DNA of 33,199 nucleotides. Origin: Nitrospirota bacterium (lineage in GTDB: Bacteria; Nitrospirota; Nitrospiria; Nitrospirales; Nitrospiraceae). Positions 5,135 through 12,474 of the stretch are shown here, in pieces. Position 1 is the stretch's first letter; each line of letters begins with the position of its first letter. The notes under the pieces were generated by a model. That model did no database searches. It saw nothing but the letters and a program-made list of their open reading frames with translations, and was not told the DNA's origin. The DNA is taken from NCBI GenBank assembly GCA_028876065.1, contig JAGWTI010000032.1, positions 1 to 33,199 of the forward strand, read 5' to 3'. Made by a program: the position numbers and the translations under genes.

Positions 5135-5232
5135 GGTCGTCCCTCTCAATGAATCTCGTCCTTGTCTTGCCGCTGCCTGCCCATCTGCCGGGTAAGCATA
5201 GCGCAAGGTTGGCCCTGTTGTCTCGTCGTTTT

Positions 5233-6171
5233 TTATGGGAGGAACCGGAGGAGGAGGGGATTGACCAGGTCTGGCCTCTCCCATTGGGGAATGTGGCCCG
5301 CCTGGGGGACCAGTTCCAGGGTCGAGCCGGGGATCGTGGCAGCCAGGTCTCGGCCGACTTGCGGGGGGAAGATCCGGTCTTCCTGGCCCCAGATGATGAG
5401 GGTGGGGCGGGCAATCGCGCCGATCCGTTTGGCAAACCCCTCCTCCCATTGGGGCAGGGCCCTGGCCTGGGCCATGATGGGCGGGATGAGTCCCGGCCGC
5501 CGGCGGTTGCGGTAGGCCCGGTCGAGCACCGCCTGGGTGAGCCGGCTCTGGTCGTAGACGATCTCTTGCAACACCGACTCCGTGAGGCCCCGCCCGGCCA
5601 GCCAGTTGCCCAGTCGGACGAGCCAGGTCGGGGCGCTGGTTTCGATGGCCCGTTTGACGAGGGTGCCGGTGAGTTTTTCGCGCACATGGTCCGGGAACCC
5701 GCTGATCAGGACGAGCCGGTCCACCCGCTCCGGATGGGCCAGGGCCATGCCGATGACCAGCCCTCCGCCCATCGAGTTGCCCACGAGCGAAGCCCGCTGG
5801 ATTCCCAGCGCGTCCATGAAGGCGCTCAAGAAGGCCACCATGTCATCGGGACTGTAGTCTTGGTCCGGTTTGTCGGAGAGGCCGGAGCCGAGCAAGTCCA
5901 ACGTGATCAGCCGATGGCCCGTGGCCAAGGCCTCTTGCTGATATTCCCACTGCCACATGGACCCGCCGAAGCCATGGATGAGGATGACCGGGTCCCCCTG
6001 GCCTTCATCCAGGTAGGCGATCCGGTGGCCCTGAACCAGAACCGTCTTGATGGGGAGCCGTTGGAACGAATCGAACCAGGGCGGAGGGTCCTGGACGGTG
6101 GTGCAGGCGGTCACGAGAAGGGGAAGGAGCAAGAGGACGAGGGAAACCATCCGGGAGGGCGCATGGCGCAT
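5233..6171 (-). CDS. Alpha/beta-hydrolase lipoprotein
   Basis: A 312-aa alpha/beta-hydrolase fold protein with a lipoprotein signal (LVTAC, lipid Cys23). The oxyanion HGFGG segment (66-70), nucleophile elbow GNSMGGG (Ser133), acid Asp265 in GQEDRIFP and base His293 in AGHIPQWE form a complete catalytic triad, so it should be an active serine hydrolase; the family ranges from esterases and lipases to C-C bond hydrolases and the substrate cannot be read from sequence. ATG 6171 lies 3 bases after the stop of the carboxylase subunit gene, and GGAG overlaps that stop, so the two are translationally close and likely cotranscribed. tpx follows 98 bases downstream. Confidence 0.85.
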   Translation of the reverse strand: MRHAPSRMVSLVLLLLPLLVTACTTVQDPPPWFDSFQRLPIKTVLVQGHRIAYLDEGQGDPVILIHGFGGSMWQWEYQQEALATGHRLITLDLLGSGLSDKPDQDYSPDDMVAFLSAFMDALGIQRASLVGNSMGGGLVIGMALAHPERVDRLVLISGFPDHVREKLTGTLVKRAIETSAPTWLVRLGNWLAGRGLTESVLQEIVYDQSRLTQAVLDRAYRNRRRPGLIPPIMAQARALPQWEEGFAKRIGAIARPTLIIWGQEDRIFPPQVGRDLAATIPGSTLELVPQAGHIPQWERPDLVNPLLLRFLP

Positions 6172-6174
6172 GCG

Positions 6175-8136
6175 CTACTCCAATTGGATGAGCGTTTCGT
6201 CGGTCTTGACGTCGTCTCCGTCCTTCGCATAGAGGGCGGCCACGGTCCCGCCGACGGGGGCCGGCACCCGGCTTTCCATCTTCATCGCTTCGATGATCAG
6301 GACCGGATCGCCGGCGTTGACCCGGTCGCCCTTGGCCACCAGGACTTTCACCACGCGGCCCGGCATGGGCGAGCTGATGTCGCCCGGCTTGGTCGGTTTG
6401 GGCCGCTTGGGCTTGCCGGCTTTGCCCTGGTCGGGCGGCTCCGGGACTCCGGCCAGCACTTCCTGGATCGGCTCCAGATGCACTTCTTCGAGCTTGTCGT
6501 TCACCCGGATGTAGTAGGGCTTGCGGCCGTCGCTCTTGCGGCCCGAGCCGGACACCTGGATGTGGAAGGTCTCGCCGTGCACGGTGACGTTGAATTCCGC
6601 CGGCGCCAGGTGCAGCTCGTGGGCGACCGCCGGGCCCTTCTCCGGCGGGGTCTCCAACGGCTCCGGCTTGAGATCGCCTTTCTCCCGCGCCTCGAAGAAC
6701 TCCCGCGCGATGGCCGGGAAGAGGGCGAAGGAGAGCAGATCTTCCTCGGTCGCCGCCTTGCCGGCCGATTCCCGCTTGGCCGCTTCCAGCTCCGGCTCGA
6801 GCCGGTCCGCGGGCCGGCTGGTGATCGGCTCCTCGTTGCCGATGGCGCGCGCCGCCACCTCGGCGGAGACCGGGCCAGGCGGCTGGCCGTAGAGGCCCAG
6901 GAAGTAGTTCTTGGTCTCGGTGGTGATGACTTTGTACCGTTCGCCGGTCAGCACGTTCAGCGTCGCCTGAGTGCCGACGATCTGGCTGCTGGGGGTCACC
7001 AGCGGCGGGTAGCCCATGTCCTGCCGGACGCGGGGCACCTCCTCCAGCACCTGCCGCATCTTGTCGATGGCGTTCTGCGCGGCGAGCTGGGCGGCCAGGT
7101 TGGAGAGCATGCCGCCGGGAATCTGCGAGGTCAGGATTTCCGCGTCCACGCCGGTGAAGTCGCTCTCGAATTGCTGGTACTTGCGGCGCACGGTGCGGAA
7201 ATGTTCCGCGATCGGCACGAACCGCGTGAGTTCCAGGCCCGTGTCGTAGGGCGTGCCCCGCAGCGCGGCCACCAGGGTCTCGGTGGGCGGATGGGAGGTG
7301 CCACCGGCCAGGGGCGAGATGGAGGTGTCCAACATGTCGAGCCCGCCCAGCACGGCCATGAAGGCCGACATGGAGGCCATGCCGGAGGTGTAGTGGCTGT
7401 GCAAGTGGATCGGGGCGCGGACCGCCGCCTTGAGCCGCTTGACCAGGGTATAGGCGTCGGCCGGCGCCAGCAGCCCGGCCATGTCCTTGATGCAGATGGT
7501 GTCGGTGCCCAGGTCCTCCAGCTTCTTGGCCAGGTCGACGAACCGGTCCAGGTTGTGGACCGGGCTGATCGTGTAGCACAGGGAGGCCTCGACGTGCTTC
7601 CCGTTGGCCTTGACCTCGTGCATGGCCCGTTCCATGTTGCGCACGTCGTTGAGGGCGTCGAAGATGCGGAACACGTCGATGCCGTTGGCCGCGGACCGTT
7701 CGATGAACTTCTCCAGCACGTCGTCGGCATAGTGCCGGTAGCCCACGATGTTCTGGCCGCGCAGGAGCATCTGCAGCCTGGTCCTGGGCATGGCCTGCTT
7801 GAGGGCCCGCAGCCGCTCCCAGGGGTCTTCCTTCAAAAAGCGCAGGCAGGTGTCGAAGGTGGCGCCGCCCCAGACTTCCAGCGACCAGTAGCCCACCGCA
7901 TCCAGGCTCTGGGCGATCGGCAGCATGTCCTCGGTGCGCATGCGGGTGGCCAGCAAGGATTGATGGCCGTCGCGCAGCGCCACGTCCGTGAGCAGGAGTT
8001 TTTTCTCCGGCGCCGAGCCGACCGGAAGCAGGGGTTTCGCCGTCTCCCTGAACGGCCCTTTGGCCTGGGCCTTCGGCACGGACCGGAGGTGGCTGCCTTT
8101 GCGCGAAGCGGATTTCTTTTTCGGAATTTTTGCCAT
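6175..8136 (-). CDS. pycB: Carboxyltransferase/biotin-carrier subunit (pyruvate or 2-oxoglutarate carboxylase type)
   Basis: Transfers CO2 from carboxybiotin to a 2-oxo acid. Domains in order for 653 aa: a lysine-rich leader of about 45 residues, an HMGL-like carboxyltransferase TIM barrel starting TDVALRDGHQSLLATRMR, a conserved carboxylase domain, a Pro/Lys linker, and a C-terminal biotinyl domain with EAMKM, biotin-bearing Lys619, 34 residues before the end as is standard. ICIKDMAG and HLHSHYTSG supply the metal site. No membrane-partner genes (oadB/G type) are nearby, which argues against a sodium-pump decarboxylase. The size is close to the large subunit of Hydrogenobacter 2-oxoglutarate carboxylase (CfiA) as well as PycB; sequence alone does not settle the substrate. 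No clear Shine-Dalgarno precedes ATG 8136. Confidence 0.87.
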   Translation of the reverse strand: MAKIPKKKSASRKGSHLRSVPKAQAKGPFRETAKPLLPVGSAPEKKLLLTDVALRDGHQSLLATRMRTEDMLPIAQSLDAVGYWSLEVWGGATFDTCLRFLKEDPWERLRALKQAMPRTRLQMLLRGQNIVGYRHYADDVLEKFIERSAANGIDVFRIFDALNDVRNMERAMHEVKANGKHVEASLCYTISPVHNLDRFVDLAKKLEDLGTDTICIKDMAGLLAPADAYTLVKRLKAAVRAPIHLHSHYTSGMASMSAFMAVLGGLDMLDTSISPLAGGTSHPPTETLVAALRGTPYDTGLELTRFVPIAEHFRTVRRKYQQFESDFTGVDAEILTSQIPGGMLSNLAAQLAAQNAIDKMRQVLEEVPRVRQDMGYPPLVTPSSQIVGTQATLNVLTGERYKVITTETKNYFLGLYGQPPGPVSAEVAARAIGNEEPITSRPADRLEPELEAAKRESAGKAATEEDLLSFALFPAIAREFFEAREKGDLKPEPLETPPEKGPAVAHELHLAPAEFNVTVHGETFHIQVSGSGRKSDGRKPYYIRVNDKLEEVHLEPIQEVLAGVPEPPDQGKAGKPKRPKPTKPGDISSPMPGRVVKVLVAKGDRVNAGDPVLIIEAMKMESRVPAPVGGTVAALYAKDGDDVKTDETLIQLE

Positions 8137-8181
8137 GTCGATTGCGCGCGGGGCGGTCCCCGGCCGCGCACTCCTTACGCC

Positions 8182-9600
<1,419 letters not shown>

Positions 9601-9723
9601 GATCGGAGAGGGCTCCTTGGCCGCACGTGCCGCTCCATGGCCGTCTTGCACCATGGTCCGAATCGGAGCGCGTAAGCTAGCACAGCTGTTTACGGAAAGT
9701 CGAGAGAGCCGGCAGGGGAAATC

Positions 9724-9762
9724 CCGGCTCCGGAGCGCCTCGTCGTCGGCGCCCGGAGCCGG
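9724..9762 (-). terminator. Strong hairpin downstream of the TIG-domain gene
   Basis: CCGGCTCCG (9724-9732) pairs perfectly with CGGAGCCGG (9754-9762), and GCGCC/GGCGC (9735-9739/9748-9752) extends the stem inward. On the minus strand it follows the TIG gene stop by 29 bases and is followed by GATTTCCC, a short T run. Probably a transcription terminator separating this operon from the carboxylase genes. Confidence 0.55.
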
Positions 9763-9791
9763 AAACAAGCAGAGGTATTCGGGGGGATGGC

Positions 9792-10262
9792 CTACTTGGA
9801 TTTGATCAGAAATCCCTTGGAGCGGGCGTTGCCGCCGCCGGCGACCACGTCGATGAACGACATGCCCGTGCGGGCCTCGGGCACGACCACTTCGATCGTG
9901 GTGTCGTTCACGAGGGTGTACTGGACGGGGGCGCCTCCGGTCGCGCTGAAGGCCACGCCGTGGAAGCACTCCTTGGTGCCGAAGTTCTCGCCCTTGATCG
10001 TGATCTTCTGCCCCGGCGCCGCTTCGTCCGGCTCGACTTTGAAGACTTTGGGCCGCTTGCTCCGGTCGCAGACCGGGTCTTTTTCGATCTTGTTCGCGTC
10101 GAAGCCCTTGATGGATTCCGTGCCGAACATGCTGAAGCCGGTGCCTTCCTCCATGCTGCCTTCTGGCGCGGCGCCTTCGGCGGCCCAGACCCCCGGGGCC
10201 TGTATGCCGGCCAGCCCCACGGCCGCCAGTAACACCATCGTGCGGAATGCCTGTCTGCCCAT
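9792..10262 (-). CDS. Secreted IPT/TIG-domain protein
   Basis: A 156-aa exported protein: signal peptide ending near GVWAAEG, a short acidic linker, then an immunoglobulin-like TIG/IPT domain from about residue 70 (PKVFKVEPDEAAPGQKITIKGENFG) to the end. Such domains are binding or structural modules; no catalytic residues are apparent. Two cysteines (DPVCDRS and KECFHG) could form a disulfide. ATG 10262 is chosen over the upstream in-frame start because AAGGAGG sits 6 bases before it. The gene begins 30 bases after the stop of the binding-protein gene on the same strand, so the two are probably one operon and may work together in the periplasm. Confidence 0.75.
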   Translation of the reverse strand: MGRQAFRTMVLLAAVGLAGIQAPGVWAAEGAAPEGSMEEGTGFSMFGTESIKGFDANKIEKDPVCDRSKRPKVFKVEPDEAAPGQKITIKGENFGTKECFHGVAFSATGGAPVQYTLVNDTTIEVVVPEARTGMSFIDVVAGGGNARSKGFLIKSK

Positions 10263-11383: not shown

Positions 11384-11692
11384 TCAGTTGCCGCCGCTCG
11401 AGTCCGGTTTGGGCGTCCCGAAGTTGTCCGGGGCGGGCAGGACCCGCTTGCCCATGGCCGGCGGCAGCTTGGAGAATTTGTCCATCCGCTGGTTGAGCAT
11501 GTCGTAGGCCTTCATCTCCTTGAAGCCGGGCTTGTGGTCGCCGACGATCTGGGAGGCGAAGGAGGACATCAACCTGGTGGCTTTCTGGGCGCGGCAATGA
11601 GGGCAGACCGTATCTTCCGCCCGGAAGCTGACCGGTTGGACCTGCTCGAACGGTTGGCCGCAGCCTTCGCAGCGATACTCATACAATGGCAT
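11384..11692 (-). CDS. FmdB-type zinc-ribbon protein
   Basis: A 102-aa protein beginning MPLYEYRCEGCGQPFEQ, with CxxC pairs at CEGC and CPHC: the short N-terminal zinc ribbon of the FmdB/CxxC_CxxC_SSSS family. The remainder is Lys/Met-rich and unstructured-looking, longer than the minimal family member. Family members are small putative regulators of unknown mechanism. Start ATG 11692 has AAGGAG at 7 bases. A TATAAT lies on the same strand at 11733-11738. Confidence 0.8.
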   Translation of the reverse strand: MPLYEYRCEGCGQPFEQVQPVSFRAEDTVCPHCRAQKATRLMSSFASQIVGDHKPGFKEMKAYDMLNQRMDKFSKLPPAMGKRVLPAPDNFGTPKPDSSGGN

Positions 11693-11795: not shown

Positions 11796-11825
11796 TTGAC
11801 CCTGAGCCGATCCGTCGAGTATGGT
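11796..11825 (+). promoter_or_regulatory. Sigma70-type promoter for the leader and small gene at 12019
   Basis: TTGACC (11796-11801), an 18-base spacer, then TATGGT (11820-11825). It predicts a transcript starting near 11832 with a leader of roughly 185 bases before the 58-codon gene. Confidence 0.5.
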
Positions 11826-11880
11826 AGCGCCGGACGCGTGCGGTGTGACGAACGTACGCGTGATCACTTGAGGGTTCTAT

Positions 11881-11995
11881 CCGGCTGCCAAAGTGATCTG
11901 ACGAGCAGCCGGTTCAAACGGGGCGTTGAGAAATCCAGGTTTCCCGGAGGCAAGGAAACTATCCGCCGCGCGGTGATCGAACGCGGCGGCTCAAC
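11881..11995 (+). ncRNA. Candidate structured leader: hairpin plus three-way junction
   Basis: Complementary blocks read directly: CCGGCTGC/GCAGCCGG (11881-11888/11905-11912) form one hairpin. GTTGAG/CTCAAC (11925-11930/11990-11995) enclose two further stems, GTTTCC/GGAAAC (11939-11944/11954-11959) and CCGCCGCG/CGCGGCGG (11963-11970/11982-11989). The enclosed stems end 10 bases before the Shine-Dalgarno of the next gene. I do not recognise it as a known riboswitch class. It could be a regulatory leader or an unrelated fold. Confidence 0.45.
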
Positions 11996-12018
11996 AAAGT
12001 GTTGTAGGGAGGCGGTCC

Positions 12019-12195
12019 ATGCCGTTGTTGTTGCGGAAGTACAAACTGGCCAGTGGGATGATGCAGGAAGAGCGGATCGACGATCCGGACCGGATCGAGC
12101 GGTACATGAAGCTCTTCGAGAAGGACGACATCAAGAAGTTGGAAGCCGGTGGCAGGGTGTTCATCGAGAAGGATGAGTGGCAGCTCTTTCCGTAG
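12019..12195 (+). CDS. Small hypothetical protein, 58 aa
   Basis: ATG 12019 follows GGGAGG at 7 bases. The charged product runs MPLLLRKYKLASGMMQEERI and ends DEWQLFP; it has a helical acidic/basic middle (ERYMKLFEKDDIKKLE) and a VFIEKDEW end. No membrane segment and no cysteines. It is intergenically isolated, with the structured leader upstream and repeat-like sequence downstream. Codon use is GC-rich like the neighbours, and the combination of ribosome binding site, promoter and clean stop supports a real gene. Function unknown. Confidence 0.6.
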   Translation: MPLLLRKYKLASGMMQEERIDDPDRIERYMKLFEKDDIKKLEAGGRVFIEKDEWQLFP

Positions 12196-12474
12196 CAGGA
12201 TGCCGAACGATCCCGCCCGTTTCGTTCCCGCTTCGCTCAGAGCCTCAACGTACGGTTAAGCAAAAGGCAACGCGCCTCTCCGCTCGCCTCTGATCGAAAC
12301 GAGCGGGTCCCGCGAAGCTTGGTACGTACGACCTCGCCTCGTCGCTTGCCGCGGCCCTGCCGCACGGCCTGGTTGAGTATTCCGGCGGCGCGGTCTGTTG
12401 CGGGCGGGGTATGGGCGTGATAGGCTCTGGTGCAGCCGGGGAGCGTTCTGGCCTGTCGGCCTAGAGGGAGACGC
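12196..12474. other. Repeat-like intergenic stretch
   Basis: No gene seen. The segment 12355-12385 (CTGCCGCACGGCCT followed by GGTTGAGTATTCC) resembles the reverse complement of 31181-31210 (GCGGACGGCCT, TTTTGAACATCC), suggesting diverged copies of one dispersed repeat. AAGCAAAAGG near 12260 is also shared with the repeat at 1576-1618. Confidence 0.35.

Follow-up and report, generated by a model that had tools for sequence, protein, structure and literature searches.

The REP, REPIN and BIME elements are short, many-copy intergenic palindromes that occur in clusters and are patchily distributed between relatives (PMC3733652, PMC3116915, PMC6006769), and REPs are marked by GTAG and CGTC tags (PMC3733652, PMC6006769). 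The BOX elements of Streptococcus pneumoniae, described together with RUP and SPRITE, are modular stem-loops nested with other repeats (PMC3049150). The repeat unit analyzed here resembles the first group in being a short palindromic sequence present between genes in many copies, clustered and patchy, and it resembles BOX in its variable module number, its presence in leaders and spacers and its nesting, BOX being nearest in behavior with no sequence relation claimed. No description of a repeat of this kind in Nitrospira was found in the open-access literature; a table of counts in the RepRanger paper has an entry for Nitrospira moscoviensis, in a passage that gives no motifs. The unit apparently represents an undescribed family of dispersed palindromic repeats, unusual in that its copies dock where genes and tRNAs begin or end.

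In the window, the whole 33,199-nt stretch of a Nitrospirota contig (JAGWTI010000032.1) that was analyzed, positions 11796-12195 were singled out by a sequence-only reading, which proposed that an 8-bp hairpin and a three-way junction form a structured RNA leader between a promoter-like sequence and a strong Shine-Dalgarno site ahead of a tiny gene. The features of this region are as follows.

11796-11825, + strand: promoter of the small gene, TTGACC-N18-TATGGT (consensus scan; pattern recurs in 80/80 orthologs)
11864-11936, + strand: repeat unit 1, a diverged copy, stem 11881-11888/11905-11912 (model R1, 17.2 bits, E 0.008 in the window)
11941-12012, + strand: repeat unit 2, stems 11963-11970/11982-11989 and 11992-11996/12000-12004 (R1, 73.2 bits)
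12007-12012, + strand: Shine-Dalgarno site GGGAGG, adjoining the unit 2 3' end (same junction at other copies)
12019-12195, + strand: conserved 58-codon gene with no assigned function (relatives, alignment)
12193-12376, no strand assigned: larger dispersed repeat holding unit 3, terminator-like elsewhere (73-75% identical stretches elsewhere in the genome)
12258-12329, + strand: repeat unit 3, nested in the larger dispersed repeat (R1, 51.9 bits)

The promoter, the Shine-Dalgarno site and the tiny gene all proved to be present as proposed. The TTGACC-N18-TATNNT pattern lies upstream of every one of the 80 testable orthologs, as against 1.5% of shuffled controls. The small gene has 118 relatives, and the 80 among them that were listed lie nearly all on Nitrospira-type contigs. 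Its 58-aa product is 71-90% identical in 15 relatives, the resulting protein alignment (16 sequences) has 26 invariant columns, and a search of Pfam and NCBIfam with the product returned no match. On these comparisons, the promoter and the 58-codon gene are conserved across Nitrospira; absence of the gene from relatives, which the sequence-only reading had named as grounds for abandoning the leader, was thus not encountered. A divergent FmdB-like zinc-ribbon gene (11384-11692, - strand; Pfam Zn_ribbon_8) likewise starts ahead of the small gene in many orthologs, and the pair looks conserved.

In a starting search, short matches to positions 11946-11999 were spread over the genome. A covariance model, R1 (72 positions, 13 pairs), was built from an 11-copy alignment and matched the window three times, at the units listed above, so that the 8-bp hairpin and the three-way junction correspond to two neighboring copies of one unit of ~72 nt. 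This unit runs from about YACTGGAGGCAAAGTAACTAT through an 8-bp stem with loop NNNTGATCGAA to TTCAAGC-GAA-GCTTGGTA, and is arranged singly or in short arrays in intergenic spacers. R1 finds 43 candidate copies in the window's genome at E ≤ 1, and 42, 50, 61 and 71 copies in genomes G001, G003, G007 and G022, respectively, at E ≤ 0.01, the E-values being rough because of a short calibration. Among 198 genomes sampled from the phylum, 29 are positive, and 28 of these belong to the window's own family; copy number and confinement to one family are thus directly observed. Since the units recur dozens of times in genomes of the Nitrospira family, they constitute a repeat family and not a single-gene leader. 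We consider it likely that the structured leader consists of two neighboring copies of a dispersed, modular and probably mobile palindromic repeat of the Nitrospiraceae. Plasmid and phage records searched with the unit gave no match, and on this ground a plasmid- or phage-borne repeat was rejected.

The 12193-12376 repeat, which separates the small gene from its downstream neighbor, has relatives elsewhere in which AAAAAGGCC...GGCCTTTTT-like, terminator-like flanks enclose a unit mid-way; unit 3 itself has no alignable counterpart in the relatives compared. A second module type shares arrays with the main unit at four loci of the window's genome (L146, L144, L132 and L126); in it, CTGGAGG..TTTCTCC precedes a GGCGGC-like stem whose loop resembles CAATnnCGATAAACCGATA, and it carries the GAA-loop hairpin of the main unit.

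The hairpins described from the sequence are all present in the window. The 8-bp hairpin (11881-11888/11905-11912) is part of repeat unit 1, and the three-way junction can be drawn from the arms GTTTCC/GGAAAC (11939-11944/11954-11959) and CCGCCGCG/CGCGGCGG (11963-11970/11982-11989) and the 6-bp closing stem GTTGAG/CTCAAC (11925-11930/11990-11995). The closing stem, however, is unsupported across copies: in 60 non-compound copies, pairing between the unit's 5' flank and its 3' strand yields a mean helix of 4.4, identical to that obtained with permuted partners (4.4). Its CAAC bases also form a conserved hairpin, CAACA-AAG-TGTTG (11992-12004). As judged from these copies, conservation does not extend to the three-way junction as a fold. 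The idea that the closing stem might alternate with the GAA-loop hairpin in a switch was likewise rejected, own pairing being no better than permuted pairing.

Compensatory changes, which the sequence-only reading had proposed as a check, were found for two helices, one of 8 bp that encloses loop NNNTGATCGAA and one of 5 bp capped by a GAA-type loop, but not for the closing stem. Alignment A3, for which the model was not used, has 17 double-change cells versus 4.9 in shuffles. The larger alignments, which lean towards the modeled structure as they were fitted to R1, give 104 versus 27 and, for 62 distinct copies in which 97.4% of cells pair, 126 versus 35.5. A weaker hairpin around GGAGGCAAAG is variable among copies and lies outside the model. 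As evidence, folding energy was discarded, z being close to 0 (-0.23 for 11864-12018, -0.18 for 11921-12012); the above-chance signal is repetition and covariation across copies, which a reading of the single stretch could not reveal.

Comparison of orthologous leaders suggests how the structured stretch was assembled. In most orthologs, the distance from the end of the -10 box to the ATG is 42-49 nt; it is 118 nt, with one hairpin unit, in same-genus genomes (L207-L209) and at L009 and L010, and 193 nt, with two hairpin units, in the window. The steps of ~72 and ~75 nt correspond to one repeat unit each. In the alignment of the window with G001, G003 and L009 (loci L207, L209 and L009), unit 2 is missing from the relatives' leaders as a single block of ~75 nt (about 11921-11996), whereas unit 1 is common to the window, the same-genus relatives and L009/L010. 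An R1 scan of 80 ortholog loci, with a threshold above the score of the diverged unit 1 of L009/L010, found a copy near the gene in L014 alone, interrupted by other sequence. At L211 and L014, which represent another lineage, the leader unit lies beside the Shine-Dalgarno site and is split by a different repeat, GTCAGTTCTCAGTTTTC...

The structured elements are flanked by a conserved promoter on one side and the Shine-Dalgarno site on the other; they therefore fall within the mRNA leader, and to this extent, as in its covarying helices, the proposed structured RNA leader is borne out. It is not specific to the small gene, as far as the orthologs compared indicate: most of them have a short 5'UTR devoid of units. 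This bears directly on whether the region could be a cis-regulatory RNA leader or riboswitch belonging to that gene and sensing through the three-way junction. Such a leader would be expected at this position, between promoter and Shine-Dalgarno site, and would account for covarying helices, yet the elements are absent from most orthologs, the closing stem is unsupported and the unit also lies beside many unrelated genes and tRNAs. The sequence-only reading had matched the region to no known riboswitch or ribozyme class. At the gathering score, an Rfam search returned only tRNA matches, and relaxing the limit to an E of 10 added nothing but a snoRNA-like match attributable to chance. Identification as a riboswitch or ribozyme was rejected on the lack of an Rfam match, the absence in orthologs and the unsupported closing stem; nothing supports ligand sensing or switching, and we regard this explanation as highly improbable.

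We propose instead that an ancestral distance of ~46 nt from the -10 box to the ATG was lengthened by repeat units to 118 and then to 193 nt, insertions that would have left the promoter, the Shine-Dalgarno site and the gene unbroken. The likeliest outcome in the window would be a longer, hairpin-rich leader from which the gene is still translated using its own Shine-Dalgarno site, and copies situated in leaders would alter translation or mRNA stability only modestly, if at all.

The 3' end of the unit is the most regular feature of its placement. Of 57 copies that do not belong to the compound repeat, at least 50 carry TGG immediately downstream of GGTA. Four contexts were distinguished, in proportions that are approximate since gene calls came from a simple codon model of our own and loci are best-scoring matches. 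In the first, which is the main context in G022, the unit lies directly before a Shine-Dalgarno site (GGTATGGAGG, followed within a few nucleotides by the start codon). In the second, the unit's own ATG may serve as start codon (L125, L142, L143 and L223); the terminal GGTATGG may, for example, provide the start of an oxygen-independent coproporphyrinogen oxidase-like frame in L143. In the third, the unit adjoins a tRNA CCA end on the opposite strand (examples are L121, L138, L141, L145, L220, L248, L261, L264 and L266), a tRNA 5' end being adjoined once (L135). All checked tRNAs encode CCA, whether near a unit or not, indicating that the unit did not supply it. In the fourth, the unit is enclosed centrally by a larger terminator-like repeat and typically follows a stop codon at about 55-75 nt.

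This distribution could also arise if the units were portable leaders acting on translation or stability at the RNA level, selected upstream of many genes, for instance through a common binding protein. Most G022 copies lie 4-13 nt ahead of a start codon in the same direction, and the conserved loop TGATCGAA and the covariation would fit such a role. However, other copies are antisense at tRNA ends or lie within terminator-like repeats, units are poorly conserved at orthologous genes, and the genes downstream of the G022 copies look unrelated, presumably encoding, from their translations, a small heat-shock protein, EF-P, MraZ and others. G-U pairs are also rare: over 107 copies, the 8-bp stem has 844 Watson-Crick pairs and 1 G-U pair in a count that maximizes Watson-Crick pairs, and the G-U share is about 1% in a model-based count, compared with 2.9% in local tRNA stems. 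In these GC-rich stems, the scarcity of G-U hints weakly at selection on DNA hairpins or exchange of whole stems. Dispersed RNA-level control thus appears unlikely. It counts against the mobile-repeat reading, however, that a function as RNA or as a protein-binding site could likewise explain why loop and linker are conserved.

The presence of units is directly seen to be limited to particular lineages. The EF-P leader carries a unit in G022 alone among 19 genomes compared, and of 18 genomes compared at the spacer preceding a 2-oxoacid oxidoreductase gamma-like gene, only G000, G001 and G003 have units there. Orthologous arrays beside a zapA-like gene differ in unit number and order between G000 and G003. 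These comparisons show that copies are gained and lost between relatives; they fit transposition as well as recombination within arrays, which could account for part of the turnover. No clean pair of empty and filled sites for a solo unit was found between close strains. The one clean block difference, which lies inside an older unit, has no visible target-site duplication, and the other sites were too diverged for this comparison.

If the units spread as a strict REP family, they would be moved by a RAYT (Y1) transposase. Like REPs, they are high-copy extragenic palindromes in clusters (PMC2817692, PMC3733652), with the expected high copy number outside genes, and some host genomes encode Y1 transposases. 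The GT[AG]G/CGTC tag is nevertheless absent from the stem foot, nearly all copies having AACTAT or AACCTCT before the 8-bp stem and TTCAA after it, and arrays are direct, not inverted. PF01797 is absent from three copy-rich genomes (G001, G003 and G007, with 42, 50 and 61 copies), and a scan of 26 Y1 loci for units found none of note nearby. With neither the tag nor a flanking transposase found, RAYT/REP identity was rejected, and we judge this origin very unlikely. The unit further departs from REP, REPIN and BIME elements in its length of ~72 nt, its two supported hairpins, its long conserved single-stranded parts, its direct tandem arrays and a 3' end that regularly adjoins a Shine-Dalgarno site, a start codon or the CCA end of a tRNA. 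BOX elements, for their part, have terminal inverted repeats, which the unit lacks, and target duplications, none being visible at the one clean block difference, and three module types in fixed order are a feature of BOX; by inspection, the unit ends CTACTGGAGG and GCTTGGTATGG are not mutually inverted, as those of MITE or BOX elements would be. An integron attC-like site was considered for the GTT...AAC ends and rejected, the ends not being conserved among copies; in attC sites, moreover, the order is the reverse of GTT first and AAC last.

By inspection, the unit has a candidate likeness to IS200/IS605 ends, comprising a strand-specific hairpin, a conserved loop, a conserved 5' linker as possible guide and a constant TGG flank (complement CCA) at one end; unlike IS200/IS605, the unit encodes no transposase. 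The units probably spread as non-autonomous mobile DNA, presumably recognized in the form of single-stranded hairpins and inserted beside TGG (complement CCA). Neither the PF01797 search nor the scan of the 26 Y1 loci revealed an autonomous partner or transposase for the units, and spreading would require an enzyme other than any found in this analysis. We raise only tentatively the further possibility that the units are a new, RAYT-independent class of mobile stem-loop DNA that sets its 3' end exactly beside TGG, would for this reason dock at Shine-Dalgarno sites, at start codons and at the CCA ends of tRNAs, and builds modular leaders and tRNA-flanking hairpin arrays across the Nitrospiraceae. 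Were RAYT-free movement true, the question would become which enzyme spreads such palindromes.

Nitrospira are major nitrite oxidizers and include the comammox bacteria. A repeat that rebuilds 5'UTRs and flanks tRNA genes while leaving them unbroken would allow fast leader change between close relatives. Searches for structured RNAs would be misled by such units, whose copies show strong covariation and occupy leaders without belonging to any particular gene.

Elsewhere in the window, a 1508-aa open frame without family match (5149-9675, + strand) is probably a shadow of carboxylase genes on the opposite strand, which encode a biotin carboxylase (8185-9969) and a carboxyltransferase with biotin carrier (6178-8136).
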